From positions 1-27,898 of the IMG/VR virus record IMGVR_UViG_3300021178_000035: a stretch of DNA of 27,898 bases, one strand, 5' to 3'. How positions within the stretch are numbered: the stretch's first letter is position 1; every line of letters begins with the position of its first letter. The position numbers and the translations under genes were made by a program. This document shows positions 17,262-27,898 of the stretch, in pieces. Source of the stretch: a virus. The notes below the pieces were generated by a model. That model was given only the letters and a program-made list of their open reading frames with translations. It was not told the DNA's origin and made no database searches.

Positions 17262-19214
17262 TCAGGTCGTTCCCTGCTGCGCGGCAGCAATGGTGTTGGT
17301 CGCGCTGATCGAGATGAAGTGCAGGTCCGCTTCGAACGGAGACCACAGCTTGTATTTGATGGCAGCCATGGCGCCGGCGTCGTACTGCTCAACCTGGATG
17401 CCTTCGAGTCCGGCCACCGTGCTGACCACGAGGCCAGTCACGTCGCCCGGATCGCAGAGCAGGTAGTAGCTGGTCGTGCTGTTGCCAGTCAGTGCTGACG
17501 CTTCGAGCCAGGCGGTCGGAATGACCGTCATGGTCGCGGACGGCTGAACGACGCCGGCCTGCAAGCCAGGGCCGTTGTCGCCGCAAATCGCGCGCGCTTC
17601 CATTTCGCGTGTCGGTCCGCAGATCAGGAATCGTGGGATGTTGCCAGTCGGATTGCCGTCGAGGCCCGTCTTGACCTGGAGCGCGGTACGCACCAAGCCG
17701 AGCTTGCCGCGAGCAGCCGCCATGAGGTCTTGAGTCGTATACACCAGCGAACCGCCTGAGGTGGTGTTGCTGGTCCAGGTCGAGGTGCCTTCCGCCAAGC
17801 TGGTGCCCATGAGCAGCTTCTGGAACACGCGGCGATCCATGGTCTTGTCCAAGAGCGCGCCGGCTTGCGACAGCACGCGGTTGAACTGGCCAAGATCGTC
17901 ATTCTTCAGCGCCTGGATGGTGAGCGACAGCGTGCCGCCCCACATTTTGGCGGTGTTGCTGTATACGCCGTCCGTCTTGGTCAGCTCAGGGAATGCCACG
18001 TCTTCGACGGTGTTAGTCAAATTACCGGCCGAGAGAGCACCGATATTGTAGGTTTTGAAATCAGGCACAGTCTGGAACGAACAGACTTTCTTGTACTGGC
18101 TCGAAGCCGCGCCGCGCTCATACCCCATCGCCAGGATTTTGGTGATGTTATTGAGGAAGACGAAGTTCGGAAAGCTGGATGTCGTGACGTTCGCGGGACC
18201 AGATCGCGTTCCCTGAATCTTCTCGTTACGTCCGAGTCCATACCAGGCGATGTCAGTATCATCCCAGTTGCTGGTGTTCTCGCCCAGCATGTTCGCCGTC
18301 TGGCGGATGATGTTGCGCATCGACTTTCCGACGAGCGGATTGCCGTCCTGCAACTTCTTGTCCTTAAAACCAGCGTTCCACGCCATCGCACCCAGGGCTG
18401 CATCGCGCGCCTTATCGGCGGCGTCGATGTTGGTATGCACGGGCACATTCTTGATTTCCGTGGCCTTTGCCTTGCGCTTAATTAGCGCCGTCAGGCCTTC
18501 GGTCTCGCTGGCGAACGAGCCAAGGTCGATACCGGCGGTATCGATGCCCTGTTCTACGGCAAGCGTCTGGAGTTTGAGAGTGCGCTCAGCTTTCGCAGCG
18601 CGTTCCTTCGACTCAGCCAGCTCCCGAACGAGAGCGGCATGGTCGACAGGCTTTTCCGCAGGAACTTCCTGCGACTTATTTACGACTTCGGTCATGACCG
18701 AGGTCCTTTCTGCCGCAGGTGCGACATTTTCATGAGATCCAGTCGGCATCGCGCGCACGTGCGCACGAGCATCAGCCGGAATAGGAGTGAGAGAAATTTC
18801 GAGTAGGCGCCATTTGTTGACCGTGAGTTCCCGAGTTTCCTCGTTGAACTGCGTGTCTTTCATGTCGTAGCTGTAGCCAATCGACACGCCGCCAAGCTGG
18901 CGTTTCTTGACGGCTTTGCGCACCGAGACGCCAGACTGCATCTTGGCGTCTTCATCGATATCGGCAGACGAACGCAGCTCGCCATTGAGCACATTCATGC
19001 CGCTAATCGAACCAGCGAGCTGATTCGGATTGTGATTGATGAGCAGCGACCTGGCTGCCTGCATGTCGATGCAGGTGCCGTCGTGCTTGAGCACTTCGCG
19101 CCAGTTGCCCCAGTCCACGGCTTTGTCGGTGCTGGCGATGAGATTGATCTGACCTTCAGCGCCGAGCTGTTCAGCGTCGGACAAAGCGCGAACGCGATGG
19201 AACATTTCGGTCAT
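17262..19214 (-). CDS. Prohead protease fused to major capsid protein (650 aa)
   Basis: ATG 19214 overlaps the portal stop (ATGA). Residues 1-155 form an S78/HK97-type prohead protease: LLINHNPNQLAG supplies the expected catalytic His (His61), GGVSIGY the expected Ser (Ser111), and RLLEISLTPIPADARA (136-151) is the conserved closing segment. Residues about 190-226 are a charged coiled coil like a scaffolding delta-domain. The remainder (about 270-650) is a major capsid domain with regular beta/helix patterning ending in a Thr/Ala tail. The protease should cleave the scaffold region and itself during head maturation. Many phages encode these parts as separate genes; the fusion is a known variant. 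Confidence 0.85.
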   Translation of the reverse strand: MTEMFHRVRALSDAEQLGAEGQINLIASTDKAVDWGNWREVLKHDGTCIDMQAARSLLINHNPNQLAGSISGMNVLNGELRSSADIDEDAKMQSGVSVRKAVKKRQLGGVSIGYSYDMKDTQFNEETRELTVNKWRLLEISLTPIPADARAHVRAMPTGSHENVAPAAERTSVMTEVVNKSQEVPAEKPVDHAALVRELAESKERAAKAERTLKLQTLAVEQGIDTAGIDLGSFASETEGLTALIKRKAKATEIKNVPVHTNIDAADKARDAALGAMAWNAGFKDKKLQDGNPLVGKSMRNIIRQTANMLGENTSNWDDTDIAWYGLGRNEKIQGTRSGPANVTTSSFPNFVFLNNITKILAMGYERGAASSQYKKVCSFQTVPDFKTYNIGALSAGNLTNTVEDVAFPELTKTDGVYSNTAKMWGGTLSLTIQALKNDDLGQFNRVLSQAGALLDKTMDRRVFQKLLMGTSLAEGTSTWTSNTTSGGSLVYTTQDLMAAARGKLGLVRTALQVKTGLDGNPTGNIPRFLICGPTREMEARAICGDNGPGLQAGVVQPSATMTVIPTAWLEASALTGNSTTSYYLLCDPGDVTGLVVSTVAGLEGIQVEQYDAGAMAAIKYKLWSPFEADLHFISISATNTIAAAQQGTT

Positions 19215-21890: not shown

Positions 21891-23339
21891 TTAAATGCAC
21901 AGATCACCTATCATCACCTCGCAAAGCGCATGCATCGTCAGCGCCTGACTACGCAGCGCCGCGCGGAATACCGTCTCCGCGTCTTGGCCTTTGGAAAACC
22001 GGTACTGCGTTTGCAAATTCAGGTTATTCGAAATCGAACAGAAGATGAAGTTGAACAATTGGCACAGATCGCGGTCGACCATTTCGCTGACGACGAGCAT
22101 TTTAGCGACGTGGCTGGAATCGCTGCCGTTTTCTAGCCAGGCAAGCGCCTTGTCACAGATTCCCTGAACTTTTTGCGCGTTCTCGATAATGCGCGGAATG
22201 TCCTGCATCCGATCACGAATCGGCTTGATGATATAGTTCGGTTCATGCACTAGAAACGGCGACACGTCCAGGTCGCCCATCACCGTACCCTTGATCTTGG
22301 CCAAGCCGCCGCAGTTGATCACCGTGCGATCAGGATACGCCGTCAAAATGTGCTCGATATCGGACTTGAATAGCGAATACAGCCCGCACGTCTCGACCTG
22401 CTGGCCGTTGTTGCCGTCGACCATGAATCGCCGCATGTGATGGACTTCGGCCATCGATTCATGCGGCGAACAGTGGCCGTCGAGCGCCAGCTTATGCGCC
22501 ACATCCGCATGCGTCACGCTGCCTTCGCCGTAGGCATGGTCTTGGCCAATCAGATAGATCGGATTGCAGCCAGCCAAGAGCGCCGCGGCAATCGACAGCG
22601 AGCCCGTGCTGCGTCCTGCATAGGCGCGGCCAACGTCAGGCGCGAGCCAGGAACACAGGTAATCAGGCGTCATCCACCACAGCGCCTTGCCGTTGAATGC
22701 GTAAGCAGCACGTCGGTCAATAACCGGCAGCGCAATCAGCCGCGAGCCGCCATCGCCAGCGGCTTCGACCATCATCAGGTTTTCCTTCGTGCGCTCCAAC
22801 ATGCAGGTAAACTGCGGCACAAAGTCGATGCCGGCCGCCATGGCGTCGCAGCAAAACACGTAATGCGTCTCGGGATTGATCCGCGACAGGTACGCTTGCG
22901 CCGTTGGCCCTGCGCCCAGGCATATTGCCGGCTTGCCGACCAGCGCGTTGTGTAGGCTTGCCGTATTCGGGCACGTCTCCAGATACTTGCCTTGCAGGAT
23001 CGCGTTACGAGCACCATGCCAACTATCCAATGGGCAATTGCCGATGTCGTCGATGATCATTTCCAGCAGGCGGTGGATCGCTGGCAGCCATTCGGCCCTG
23101 ATATCTGCCGCCGCTGTCGGATGGTCGTCCTGCACGCGCAATCCGCCCATGCTGGCAACCTGTTCGTGCGTGAAGAATCGCCAGCGGATAGCGCGTAGGC
23201 ATTCGTCGAGCGTTTCGACTTTGTGGAATGTAATAGTCTTATCACAATCTTCAGGAATCGTTTCGCCTGGCAGTACGATAACGTCTGACCGTGGATAGAT
23301 ATTGAAACAGCGACCGACGCCGATGCAGAGGACGGTCAT
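21891..23339 (-). CDS. DUF115 / MptE-like protein (482 aa)
   Basis: ATG 23339 overlaps the previous stop (ATGA). Residues 136-147 (KPAICLGAGPTA) form a nucleotide-binding-type GxGP loop. Residues 244-270 (STGSLSIAAALLAGCNPIYL followed by IGQDHAY) match the signature of the DUF115/6-hydroxymethylpterin pyrophosphokinase MptE-like family. Members occur as archaeal pterin enzymes and in bacterial Maf-type proteins that transfer nonulosonic (sialic-like) sugars to flagellin. In a phage it could modify a virion or host-surface protein, or act in nucleotide/cofactor chemistry; substrate unknown. It is the largest gene of the accessory island between terminase and portal. Confidence 0.75.
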   Translation of the reverse strand: MTVLCIGVGRCFNIYPRSDVIVLPGETIPEDCDKTITFHKVETLDECLRAIRWRFFTHEQVASMGGLRVQDDHPTAAADIRAEWLPAIHRLLEMIIDDIGNCPLDSWHGARNAILQGKYLETCPNTASLHNALVGKPAICLGAGPTAQAYLSRINPETHYVFCCDAMAAGIDFVPQFTCMLERTKENLMMVEAAGDGGSRLIALPVIDRRAAYAFNGKALWWMTPDYLCSWLAPDVGRAYAGRSTGSLSIAAALLAGCNPIYLIGQDHAYGEGSVTHADVAHKLALDGHCSPHESMAEVHHMRRFMVDGNNGQQVETCGLYSLFKSDIEHILTAYPDRTVINCGGLAKIKGTVMGDLDVSPFLVHEPNYIIKPIRDRMQDIPRIIENAQKVQGICDKALAWLENGSDSSHVAKMLVVSEMVDRDLCQLFNFIFCSISNNLNLQTQYRFSKGQDAETVFRAALRSQALTMHALCEVMIGDLCI

Positions 23340-23668
23340 CCGAGCTCCTTCTTTGCCTCAATTATTTTATGTAAATGTGCCCTAGCTAGATCCATGCATG
23401 TTTCTGACTGCCTTTTCCATTCATCACGATCCTTTTCAGCGGCCAACCGCTTTTTAGTTTCCTCCATAATGTCTCGGCGCAGATTAGCGATAATTTGGTC
23501 ACGGTCGCAATCTGGATTGCCTGGAATCGGCAACCCTAATTCCTGCGGAACGTCTTCCCATTTTGGCATTTCAATTGGTTGCCCAGAGAACCCAAAAGCA
23601 AGAGACGCTGACATCTGTTGCAGGATAAATTTTCCTTCACGTTTCACGAAACGCAGCGCGGCAATCAC
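23336..23668 (-). CDS. Coiled-coil hypothetical protein (110 aa)
   Basis: The start is GTG 23668, which overlaps the previous stop as GTGA; the longer frame to 23719 begins inside the neighbour and is less likely. The N-terminal half (MIAALRFVKREGKFILQQMS...) is mixed, with a Pro-rich segment (PKWEDVPQELGLPIPGNPDC). Residues about 62-108 form a charged helix or coiled coil (MEETKKRLAAEKDRDEWKRQ). It overlaps the DUF115 start (ATGA), suggesting coupled expression. Function unknown. Confidence 0.65.
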   Translation of the reverse strand: MIAALRFVKREGKFILQQMSASLAFGFSGQPIEMPKWEDVPQELGLPIPGNPDCDRDQIIANLRRDIMEETKKRLAAEKDRDEWKRQSETCMDLARAHLHKIIEAKKELG

Positions 23669-24048
23669 ACCGCCACCAATCCCACGCCTTCGCATTTCTC
23701 GCACGGCTTGCCGCTGCATGGCCGGCAGAGGTCGCAGACTTTCAGGCCTGAATTTTTCAGTTTTACTTCGCCTTTGCCCAAGCAGATAGTGCAGATATTG
23801 CCGTCAGCCGCATAACCTCTGCGGCCGGCTATCCGACACGGGCATACAACTTTATCTTCGGGATGGTGGCCGAAGACGTGGTACATGTGCACGCTGCCGG
23901 GGTCATACCGACCGACGTACTGGTCAGCGATTTGCTTCTTCAGCAGCCCGACGCCTTTGCATAGATCGCATTCGCCAATCAAGTCATTGCACTTGGGACA
24001 GCGGACTTTGACGAAAGTATAATAGAGGCGGGAGAGGAGTTTTTTCAT
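23665..24048 (-). CDS. DnaJ-like Cys-rich zinc cluster protein (127 aa)
   Basis: ATG 24048 overlaps the upstream stop (ATGA). The protein carries CPKC (17-20), CDLCKGVG (27-34), CPC (69-71), CTICLGKG (86-93), CDLC (105-108) and CEKCEGVG (116-123). Three of these are the CxxCxGxG repeat of the DnaJ central zinc-finger domain, yet there is no J-domain (no HPD motif). Stand-alone CxxCxGxG proteins bind unfolded or partner proteins or carry zinc for assembly; here a small co-chaperone or RNA-binding role is possible. The exact family is unclear. Confidence 0.75.
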   Translation of the reverse strand: MKKLLSRLYYTFVKVRCPKCNDLIGECDLCKGVGLLKKQIADQYVGRYDPGSVHMYHVFGHHPEDKVVCPCRIAGRRGYAADGNICTICLGKGEVKLKNSGLKVCDLCRPCSGKPCEKCEGVGLVAV

Positions 24049-24281
24049 TTTTTATCCGGTGATCCGTGAATTACGTAAATGAACCCTAGCGATTGCGTCG
24101 TTGCCGCGAAAAGATCAGTTAGCGCCTTCGTACAATTCTCTGGCATACCCTTTTTCTCCGCTCTCACATAAAGTTCAATGATACCGTGCAGCGTTTTGAG
24201 CGTCGTGTCTTGGTTGATCGGCAGAACATGATCGTCCTTATCCATCGTCATGACCTCGCCTGGCCTACATTTTTTGAACAT
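24045..24281 (-). CDS. Hypothetical protein (78 aa)
   Basis: The start chosen is ATG 24281 (MFKKCRPGEVMTMDKDDHVL), two bases downstream of a relic terminase stop codon. A longer frame from TTG 24353 reads through the duplicated terminase tail in another frame and is probably an artefact. The product is mixed alpha/beta with a helical centre (TTLKTLHGIIELYVRAEKKG) and ends ...IHGSPDKK. No family is recognised. In the inferred ancestor this gene followed the large terminase directly. Confidence 0.6.
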   Translation of the reverse strand: MFKKCRPGEVMTMDKDDHVLPINQDTTLKTLHGIIELYVRAEKKGMPENCTKALTDLFAATTQSLGFIYVIHGSPDKK

Positions 24282-24283
24282 AC

Positions 24284-24330
24284 TTATAACGTCCCTATAT
24301 TCCCATAAACCCGCTTGGGTCGTGGTTTGT
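24284..24330 (-). repeat. Relic second copy of the large-terminase 3' end
   Basis: Read on the minus strand this encodes KPRPKRVYGNIGTL and a TAA stop, matching the true terminase end KPRPKRIYGNIGTL at 13 of 14 residues. The 47 bases match 24519-24565 at 36 positions, and nearly all differences are synonymous or lie in the stop codon. It lies between two intact genes and is not part of a long frame in the terminase register. Confidence 0.9.
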
Positions 24331-24345
24331 AGTTTTTCACAGATA

Positions 24346-24522
24346 TTACTCAACCTCTATCAGCCTTTCGATGTCGAACCACTCCTCAACTGGCTCGCCC
24401 TTGCTATTCAGGGCAGAAACACCGCAACGGTCTTTCCCAGTAATATATCTACAGATTGCCGTCACCTTGCCAGTGAATCCAGTAATTATGTCTTTTGCAA
24501 TCATCCCGAGTTGAATAGTCAT
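24346..24522 (-). CDS. Small phage 'TGFTGKV' protein (58 aa)
   Basis: The start chosen is ATG 24522, which overlaps the terminase stop (ATGA); the longer open frame to 24651 lies over the terminase gene. The product has KDIITGFTGKVTAICRYITG followed by KDRCGVSALNSKGEP and WFDIERLIEVE. This pattern ('D.VTGFTG.VT.r..YltGc.r..v.......p...WFDe.RL') is a common small phage protein of unknown function that often lies near packaging or structural genes. It appears to have been inserted together with a second terminase tail, which lies just downstream. Confidence 0.75.
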   Translation of the reverse strand: MTIQLGMIAKDIITGFTGKVTAICRYITGKDRCGVSALNSKGEPVEEWFDIERLIEVE

Positions 24523-24565
24523 AATGTTCCTATGTTTCCGTAAATGCGCTTTGGGCGCGGTTTGT
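24519..24565 (-). repeat. Authentic terminase 3' end, partner of the relic copy
   Basis: These are the terminal codons KPRPKRIYGNIGTL and stop of the large terminase gene. They are the partner of 24284-24330, offset 235 bases. Confidence 0.9.
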
Positions 24566-26486
24566 TGAAGGTGAGTAAATGATACCGATGCATCGCCATG
24601 CAGTACGTGCGGCAATCGAGCCAATCCCAGCGGCCTTTGAACTTTTCCCAACGCATTTTCTTCTCATCGAACTTTTCGCCGCACAAATGCTCAAGATAAG
24701 CAAGATCCGAATGATTAGTGCCAAGTCCAGACGGTAGATGCGCGGCGCCTGGCTCGCCAATCATACGCAGAAAGCTGCGCTGCGCTTCCATACGCATAGG
24801 ATTGGTGTCAATATGAACACGATGCTGGCGCAGATGCCAGCCATCCGACCTGCGCATATAGAGAACGCCTGGATAATCCGCGACTTTATCGCCTGTTTTG
24901 TGATGCATCCGTGACGCTTTTTGCGCACTGGCGCCATAGAGTGGCCACCATTCGAAGCGCGTTTTGAGCCAATTTACGATATCATCCGTCCTGAAATTGG
25001 CGTCAACGCCCCGTTTGGCAATCGGCAGCTCGCCAGCAATCTCCCGCGTCAGACCATCGATGCGCGTCAGCACGCCATGTAGGTCATTAACCGTCATCTC
25101 TTCCCGCGCCATGGTCGCGTGCTCATAGCCCCAGGCAATATCCCAGGTCGAACCATCCGGTCCGCCGCCCATAAAGAGCCAATAACAGCGATTCGCCTGC
25201 ACATCCACTGCCACCGTGGCCCATTTCGCGCCTTCGGGATGATCGGCTATGTGCCGCGAATAGCTTTGCAGGTCCGTATTGTCTTTCCTGTCCGAGTACG
25301 CTTGCGTTGGCCCCCACTGGCTGGCCTCTGAGCGTCTAAGCAGATATTTCGAGTCGATTTGCGTGGCAATGTCGTCAACGTTTTCGTCGTCACGGTATTG
25401 TAGGACCTGTTGGTCGTGCGCGAACTGCCGCATTGGTTCGTGGTTGCCTTTGTCGCGGTCTGCGATGGCGGCAGCATGGCGTTCAGCCGACAGCACCAGC
25501 GTTTTCCATGGGCAATCGAGGGCTGTGCTCCTAAGTCCAAATACGCTTGATTGCAAATTATCGGATGAATATCGGAATGAACCAAAAGCAAAGCAGGACA
25601 TCCTTTCAGCTTCAGAAATAAGTTCCCCACATTTGGTGCAAAAGAGACATGCAGTATGGGCGTTCCCTCTGGCAGACTTTTCGTACTTGAACGTTTCCCA
25701 CTCAAATCGCGTCCATTCCGGACAGTGCGGGCATTTGTACTCAATCCGGCCTTTGGTGCTTTTTTCATACATGTCCACGATGTTGGAATGATCGTTCTCA
25801 CGGTGCTCGGAATCGTCTTTCTTGATCGTGCTCACATAAAACTGAATCGCCGTTTCTGCGTATCGGTCCACACGCCTGCCGATACGCATGAGTGCATCCT
25901 GCTCCCAGTCGTCAACCTCATCGACCAAGAGCTTGCGCGCCGTTAAAGCTGCTTGCCCTGACTGTCCACGGCCTCCAGCCGCCATGAACACGAGCGTACC
26001 GCCGCCCTTGCCGTTCTTCCTGACAAATGGGACAAACCGTGGTTTACTGCCGCCCTTGCTCGTTGGACCGATGTTTGGCAAATATCCTTCAAGACCGGCG
26101 CCAGTGATTGCTGGTCTGAGCTTGAGTTGCCAGATATCTCCACCGAGATCACGAGTCGGTAACGCATAGATGACATTCTGCCCCACTTCCACCATGTCGC
26201 GGAATCCGCATTGCTGCATGATCCATGATTTTCCACCGCCCTGCGCATCGCTGGCAAACATGAACTTGATGTATTTGTGATCTGGCTGGTCATAACCGCC
26301 ATCGAGTGCATTCAGCATGATCCACTGCGCCGGATGCGATGTGGGATCGTATGGCGTCATGCGCCCATTTTCATCCTGACTGTCTGGCAGCGTCAGTGTG
26401 TAGGCAAAAGCCAGATGCGACAATGGCTCAGGTCGCTGCTTCCAGAACTCAGCACGGCGGTTGTCGAGTTCGAGGAGGGTGCTCAC
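24519..26486 (-). CDS. Terminase large subunit, lambda GpA family (655 aa)
   Basis: ATG 26486 overlaps the small-subunit stop (ATGA). The N-terminal ATPase has a Walker A-like loop SDAQGGGKS (79-87) and Walker B LLVDEVDDW (186-194). A four-Cys zinc site follows (CPHC 252-255, CTKC 283-286), typical of GpA-type enzymes. The nuclease domain includes VAVDVQANRCYW with Asp428 and a C-terminal DWLDCRTYCMAMH stretch. It cuts concatemeric phage DNA and drives packaging through the portal, in complex with the small subunit. Length agrees with lambda gpA-type proteins (about 640-660). A diverged copy of its last 14 codons lies downstream. Confidence 0.93.
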   Translation of the reverse strand: MSTLLELDNRRAEFWKQRPEPLSHLAFAYTLTLPDSQDENGRMTPYDPTSHPAQWIMLNALDGGYDQPDHKYIKFMFASDAQGGGKSWIMQQCGFRDMVEVGQNVIYALPTRDLGGDIWQLKLRPAITGAGLEGYLPNIGPTSKGGSKPRFVPFVRKNGKGGGTLVFMAAGGRGQSGQAALTARKLLVDEVDDWEQDALMRIGRRVDRYAETAIQFYVSTIKKDDSEHRENDHSNIVDMYEKSTKGRIEYKCPHCPEWTRFEWETFKYEKSARGNAHTACLFCTKCGELISEAERMSCFAFGSFRYSSDNLQSSVFGLRSTALDCPWKTLVLSAERHAAAIADRDKGNHEPMRQFAHDQQVLQYRDDENVDDIATQIDSKYLLRRSEASQWGPTQAYSDRKDNTDLQSYSRHIADHPEGAKWATVAVDVQANRCYWLFMGGGPDGSTWDIAWGYEHATMAREEMTVNDLHGVLTRIDGLTREIAGELPIAKRGVDANFRTDDIVNWLKTRFEWWPLYGASAQKASRMHHKTGDKVADYPGVLYMRRSDGWHLRQHRVHIDTNPMRMEAQRSFLRMIGEPGAAHLPSGLGTNHSDLAYLEHLCGEKFDEKKMRWEKFKGRWDWLDCRTYCMAMHRYHLLTFNKPRPKRIYGNIGTL

Positions 26487-27007: not shown

Positions 27008-27306
27008 ATGTCTTTCAGATCTTCTGGGCTTGCCATACACTTCTCGGCTTCCTTCATGCGGATAACGGCACATTGAAAACAGCGCAGCAATGCTTGATCG
27101 AATGTTTTGCCAGCACCTGACGCAGTGACGAACGGCCATGCGCCCCAACGAACGCGCCATGCGACTCGATCCTCTCTGTCGAAGTCCATGCGCATGCACG
27201 CCCAGATGTGACGCTCCAGCCATGCCAGAGCACGATCGGGCGGGAAATGATCCGCGCGCAGCAATGCGTGGCCCTCTATCTCAATTTGTTCCTGGCAGAC
27301 TATCAA
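27004..27306 (-). CDS. Hypothetical protein (100 aa)
   Basis: TTG 27306 overlaps the HNH stop (TTGA) and the end overlaps the small terminase ATG (ATGA). The product contains RALAWLERHIWACMRMDFDR and WRVRWGAWPFVTASGAGKTF, then a Cys-containing helical end. The GAGKT string resembles a Walker A fragment, but there is no Walker B or fold context, so it is not called an ATPase. Its place between an HNH nuclease and terminase suggests packaging-associated expression. Family not recognised. Confidence 0.6.
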   Translation of the reverse strand: MIVCQEQIEIEGHALLRADHFPPDRALAWLERHIWACMRMDFDREDRVAWRVRWGAWPFVTASGAGKTFDQALLRCFQCAVIRMKEAEKCMASPEDLKDI

Positions 27307-27869
27307 ACGTTTGATACCTGCCGCTGATATGCCGCCATCGCTAACGGATGAATCTGCTTTTTATTCTTTTTTGCCCACAGCATGAGATCACTGATACGCT
27401 TACTGCTATTGCAGCTTTTGCAAGACGGCGCGATATTGTCGATGCGGTCACTGCCGCCGAGTTCTTGGCAGAGGATATGGTCAGCCGTCAGATCCTGACC
27501 GACCTTCAGCAGGTCCGATCGATAGGCGCCGCAATAGGCACACTGATATTCATACTGGATCAGCAGGTCGCACCATTCGTTCGGCGTCCAGTGTGCATGC
27601 ACGGCCGTCGACTTCGCCTTTGCCGCAGGAATCCCAGCGCCGGCACGGCCCATCGCCTCAAGGATCATGGCAATCGGCACATCCCAGAAGGCGGCGAGCT
27701 TCGCAACACTGGTCAGTGCCGGTCGAGATTTTCCCGACAGCCAGGCCGGCCAGATAATCATGCGACTACACCATGGTGGTCTCTCACGTTCTTGACAAAA
27801 GGCGGCCCATTTCGCATACTTCACAAGTGAATCGCCGAAGGTGATTGCCATATAAGAACTTACATCCAA
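27303..27869 (-). CDS. HNH endonuclease near the terminase (188 aa)
   Basis: The C-terminal half is an HNH nuclease: CAYCG (110-114), the catalytic-type DH pair at LTADHILCQELGGSDRIDNI (127-146) with Asn145, and CKSCNSSK (150-157), giving two zinc knuckles around a beta-beta-alpha metal fold. Phage HNH proteins next to terminase genes (HK97 gp74 type) stimulate terminase cutting and are part of packaging in several phages. The N-terminal half has a helix-rich stretch (SVAKLAAFWDVPIAMILEAM) reminiscent of the end of an XRE-type HTH but incomplete. Start: ATG 27869, with ATG 27851 as an alternative. Confidence 0.85.
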   Translation of the reverse strand: MDVSSYMAITFGDSLVKYAKWAAFCQERERPPWCSRMIIWPAWLSGKSRPALTSVAKLAAFWDVPIAMILEAMGRAGAGIPAAKAKSTAVHAHWTPNEWCDLLIQYEYQCAYCGAYRSDLLKVGQDLTADHILCQELGGSDRIDNIAPSCKSCNSSKRISDLMLWAKKNKKQIHPLAMAAYQRQVSNV

Positions 27870-27898
27870 ATAAAAGTGATAGGATTTACCGCGTAGCG
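27870..27898 (-). other. Window edge upstream of the HNH gene
   Basis: Only 29 bases remain. They are AT-rich near the gene and show no convincing promoter or ribosome binding site, so the transcription start of the minus block lies outside the window or cannot be seen. Confidence 0.4.

Follow-up and report, generated by a model that had tools for sequence, protein, structure and literature searches.

A duplicated terminase tail on either side of a small gene in an uncultivated phage: a probable recombination scar

Introduction

It is textbook knowledge that the joints of mosaic phage genomes lie at gene boundaries. A related anatomy is found in fungal mitochondria, where hybrid genes (Allomyces atp6; Glomus atp6, atp9, cox2 and nad3) carry duplicated C-termini together with mobile ORFs encoding endonucleases; the duplicated copies are 64-81% identical in DNA, and their protein is near-identical (PMC3630166). 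In phages, nucleases mark boundaries of exchange near terminases (PMC10448857). Lambda TerL that lacks its last 5 residues does not dock on the prohead portal (PMC4856287).

Here we study a locus at which two diverged TerL C-termini, which we call tails A and B, surround a single ORF of 58 codons. The window, by which we mean the whole stretch of DNA analyzed, is the complete uncultivated-virus record IMGVR_UViG_3300021178_000035 (27,898 bp), from a tailed phage whose genes lie mainly on the minus strand. By analogy, the locus resembles a mobile-ORF gene hybrid; it only resembles one, since no nuclease lies between its tails. With a probability of roughly three in four, we regard it as a recombination scar between two related phages, in which one of the tails was displaced downstream.

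Results

Gene order in the window

The genes are laid out in the order HNH nuclease, small terminase, GpA-type large terminase (TerL), small genes, MptE-like gene, small genes, portal, protease-capsid fusion, and more genes. TerL (24519-26486, minus strand; 655 aa) is a GpA-like large terminase with ATPase and nuclease parts, as indicated by its Pfam matches (GpA_nuclease, 2.4e-21; GpA_ATPase, 5.6e-16) and by the subfamily relatives described below. The HNH endonuclease gene, ahead of the small terminase gene, occupies positions 27303-27896, and the fusion is one 650-aa gene (17262-19214) that apparently unites prohead protease and major capsid protein (Peptidase_S78 and Phage_capsid_4; phrog_4523). 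The first 80 positions of the window form a low-complexity run, read as RLRLRLRL, which is possibly an artefact of the assembly end.

Two copies of the terminase tail

TerL's final 14 codons and its stop, at 24519-24565 on the minus strand (copy A, KPRPKRIYGNIGTL and stop), are present again on the same strand at 24284-24330 (copy B, KPRPKRVYGNIGTL and stop), 235 bp downstream. The copies are identical at 36 of 47 bases and at 13 of 14 residues; the coordinates, strand and both counts had been reported in an earlier note on this DNA, and all are correct on recount. By comparison, the second-best 47-mer match within the window is 24/47. The similarity between the copies fades about 16 codons upstream, and its downstream limit is the stop codon.

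When the downstream 6 kb are searched in translation, the 14-residue tail obtains a score of 75, whereas the best of 2000 shuffled tails reaches 43. The same screen, applied to 89 GpA-type terminase loci, places the tail of the window 41 points over its own null and the runner-up 6 points over; the other 88 loci, including L093-L097, have no copy of the tail downstream of the terminase. Given the score relative to the shuffles and the outlying position among the 89 loci, we conclude that the tail duplication is beyond a chance match.

Among the loci screened, L052 carries a zinc-ribbon-like gene right after its terminase (2508-2807) whose product ends in PPSRRTARSRYLGG, resembling the tail of L052's own terminase, AGRRVARSKYLRGGE. 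We rejected this locus as a second case of a duplicated tail, because its P of about 0.004 for one locus is not significant over 89 loci.

Type of divergence between the copies

Counted by codon position (1/2/3) in the terminase frame, the differences between the copies number 1/1/9, so that 9 of the 11 are at third positions. At the level of residues there is one I/V change, plus a swap of the TGA and TAA stops. In the remaining two frames of the tail copies, 9-10 of 15 residues differ; it is thus the terminase frame that is constrained, and not the TTG frame, an ORF of 102 aa running through the scar from a TTG start. Two claims of the earlier note are thereby supported, namely that copy B represents the 3' end of a terminase shaped by coding selection and that the TTG-started frame would be an annotation trap. 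Codon statistics are no guide to origin here, as 14 codons are too short to separate native from foreign.

If 5-6 of the 11 changes had been neutral on a displaced copy, the probability of at most one residue change would be 0.018-0.006; if 3 had been neutral, it would be 18%. The coding type of the divergence and the low neutral probability imply that most of the divergence is older than the joining, or else that copy B is still under selection. From the pattern of substitutions, it is probable that each copy diverged as the end of a terminase and that the two were joined afterwards.

A tandem duplication of the tail inside this phage, with divergence afterwards, would be a simple local event, and the spacing of only 235 bp is in its favor. 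A free copy, however, would diverge without codon bias, contrary to the excess of third-position changes, and we find this account hardly credible.

The possibility of continued selection deserves separate treatment. Copy B might be a live mini-gene: a candidate 18-aa peptide (24284-24340, minus strand) would be read from a GTG at 24340 to the TAA at 24284 by reinitiation after the 58-aa gene, and its portal-docking tail would modulate docking. The 18-codon frame is intact and begins 5 nt past the 58-aa stop, its divergence from copy A is almost purely synonymous, and in lambda the tail serves as a peptide for docking (PMC4856287). Yet the Shine-Dalgarno sequence is weak (GAG, 8 nt), the element is not conserved in any relative (the other 88 loci, including L093-L097), and a limited literature search gave no precedent. 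Moreover, selection acting in two terminase genes before the joining gives the same pattern. A live mini-gene is, in our judgment, unlikely. Quite unlikely, too, is the more specific proposal that copy B would act as a free 18-aa terminase-tail peptide, binding the portal so as to tune or block docking and serving as a portable docking tag in the packaging operon. The end of the L052 zinc-ribbon protein, with its resemblance to that phage's own terminase tail, is a faint parallel to such a peptide. That copy B is still intact does count against a scar, since a relic need not stay so.

An empty site in a distant relative

Degenerate patterns retrieved five TerL relatives from IMG/VR (L093-L097; 28-37% identity), and their membership of the subfamily was confirmed by tblastn with the window protein. 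The patterns were shaped by an artificial alignment (A2) of the window protein with three scrambled variants, which was put to no other use.

The genome most similar overall is IMGVR_UViG_3300037851_000504 (L092/L097). L097 and the window share TerL (28% identity), the MptE-like protein (32%, E 5e-34), the portal (36%, E 8e-74) and the capsid (32%, E 1e-74), along with tail genes and several further genes, and the order of TerL, MptE-like gene and portal is the same in both. TerL of L097 ends in SKPRARQYGIVGHYV with its stop at 1867, 8 nt before the ATG of the MptE-like gene at 1876. The boundary is an empty site: it contains neither the 58-aa gene nor the relic, nor the 78-aa gene (24045-24281 in the window, minus strand), nor either of two 127-aa genes. 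The first of these latter (23665-24048, minus strand) is rich in Cys, with CxxC repeats, and the second (23336-23719, minus strand; up to 127 aa) has atypical codon use and is the last in the block missing from L097. At this boundary the window thus carries genes where a syntenic relative has none.

The earlier note had anticipated relatives without the 58-aa gene, and L097, in which TerL is directly followed by the MptE-like gene, has neither this gene nor the relic. The note had further proposed that in the ancestor the terminase was directly followed by the gene at 24045-24281, and that the 58-aa gene was the newcomer. Neither proposal is established, nor is the 58-aa gene favored as newcomer over the block of 78-aa and 127-aa genes, because L097, which alone among the relatives is informative here, has neither the 58-aa gene nor the 78-aa gene and so does not give the order of their arrival. 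A terminase directly followed by the 78-aa gene may be regarded as one of two options equally compatible with the data. Moreover, at only 28% TerL identity, the empty site could also reflect a later loss in L097.

Behind TerL, L095 and L096 have a Cys-rich zinc-ribbon-like gene, then a small gene, then the portal; thus, the interval between TerL and portal is variable in general. Single-protein scans with TerL and capsid, and genome scans, found no close relative (>40% TerL identity) in the collections searched, nor does the relic tail form the true end of the terminase in any relative there. The match to terminase genes that the earlier note had proposed to look for did not appear: patterns of the tail DNA gave no match, or three chance matches outside terminase genes. 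The synonymous divergence, together with homologues of the 58-aa gene elsewhere, suggests that the joined segments come from different lineages, but no parent phage was found in the collections searched.

Two distant phages (window 21891-23339, minus strand; L097 1876-3336) both have an MptE-like gene between the terminase and the portal, an odd location for a protein of this kind. The window gene matches Pfam PF01973 (2.3e-14) and, weakly, a PseD-like protein; no relative was found in the phage records searched.

The gene between the tails

The 58-aa gene (24346-24522, minus strand) belongs to phrog_16275 (PHROG 6.2e-12). Its start overlaps the TerL stop (ATGA), and copy A contains an AGGA five bases before its ATG at 24522; the AGGA and the overlap make it probable that terminase and 58-aa gene are translationally coupled. 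The GC content is 0.46 in the 58-aa gene and in the 78-aa gene, versus 0.54-0.59 for TerL, portal and capsid. In Pseudomonas phage PMBT3, pyrophosphohydrolase and ThyX/DNA polymerase genes flank the phrog_16275 gene; Rhodobacter and Shewanella phages carry it near nuclease, resolvase, primase or AAA-ATPase genes; and one IMG/VR contig has a member outside any packaging module. The gene is absent from the records of the five TerL relatives, which are fragments or of unstated completeness. Its homologues in other phages belong to replication or early modules; the 58-aa gene is therefore probably imported cargo, which in this phage sits outside its usual place.

The structure model of the 58-aa protein is poor (pLDDT 63). 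An Spt4-like identity was rejected, the match being weak, far under the family cut-off, and not common to the protein's relative. So was a -1 frameshift joining the gene to the relic, as there is no slippery sequence. We find no promoter-like or terminator-like site around the gene on its strand, and by Pfam, PHROG and further profile searches neither the 58-aa product nor the 78-aa product has a nuclease domain.

This last result bears on the replacement of the terminase 3' end by a mobile ORF, that is, a selfish element that would have brought in a foreign terminase tail with its cargo and displaced the native tail. The anatomy is the same as in the fungal hybrids, with a core, an inserted C-terminus, an ORF, a displaced native C-terminus and mainly synonymous divergence (PMC3630166), and near phage terminases the boundaries of exchange are marked by homing endonucleases (PMC10448857). 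However, the 58-aa cargo has no nuclease domain and hence no sign of a homing endonuclease, and either tail could be the native one of the window TerL. We consider such a replacement improbable.

The gene after copy B

The ATG at 24281 follows the stop of copy B by 2 nt and has a poor Shine-Dalgarno sequence, whereas the ATG at 24245 is better served, with a strong one (GGCGAGG) 8 nt upstream. The 2-nt spacing described in the earlier note is therefore correct, but the first ATG may not be a real start, and the 78-aa gene may really encode 66 aa, starting at 24245. Its product has no match in Pfam, PHROG, NCBIfam or phage proteins, and no homologue in L097.

As the record is an uncultivated-virus contig, one might suppose that two co-existing variants, one with terminase and 58-aa gene and the other with terminase and 78-aa gene, were misjoined in a metagenome assembly. 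The joint would then fall past the 58-aa stop and before tail B, at a place where the similarity between the copies ends and where there is no obvious repeat common to the flank of the other copy; and the genes on both sides keep a tight operon. We therefore hold a chimera to be very unlikely.

Discussion

Under the reading that we prefer, a recombination scar, the parents would be two related phages with a near-identical terminase C-terminal peptide, whose DNA differed by about 23% there. Recombination would have occurred at, or adjoining, the terminase 3' end. Tail A would complete the working terminase, coupled to the 58-aa gene via the ATGA overlap, while tail B would have been moved 235 bp downstream, a remnant ahead of the 78-aa gene and outside any terminase gene. 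The tail peptide would have been kept constant in both parents, probably through its role in docking terminase on the portal; we propose this role for the window TerL by analogy, since the last residues of lambda TerL are needed for docking on the prohead. We infer both the recombination event itself and a joining that is recent relative to the divergence. The scar proposed in the earlier note is thus supported as regards recombination at the terminase 3' end; its polarity, with the 58-aa gene as the newcomer, is not established from L097.

The joint is real, clear and well preserved, yet it is an instance of ordinary phage gene mosaicism. Its value is that it records, in legible form, how a packaging operon can take up small cargo genes and leave the terminase unbroken: the intact tail, which probably docks on the portal, is kept, and the other is abandoned. 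For annotation, it follows that the downstream gene should not be lengthened through the scar by means of the TTG start. If tail B were translated, competition for the portal could be tested directly at this locus. No displaced terminase tail is reported in the literature covered by a limited search.

Three known systems invite comparison. As in the insertion of morons or cargo genes, extra small genes of lower GC lie between conserved morphogenesis genes; unlike a moron, the 58-aa gene is without a promoter-like or terminator-like site around it on its strand, its start runs into the terminase stop, and a terminase tail lies on either side of it. As in the fungal mitochondrial hybrids, the window has a core, one C-terminus, an ORF and a displaced second C-terminus; in those hybrids, however, the ORF is a homing endonuclease, whereas the window has a phage terminase as its gene, a cargo that shows no nuclease signature, and two tails of which either is possibly native. 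Finally, the locus is like the novel joints of tailed-phage mosaics, produced by illegitimate or homeologous recombination, in that the joint is at a gene boundary, small foreign genes are present, gene order is kept, and a piece of a neighbor is left over. It differs from the usual mosaic joint in that what is left over is the neighbor's own 3' end, in a second and diverged copy, so that the event is unusually readable.
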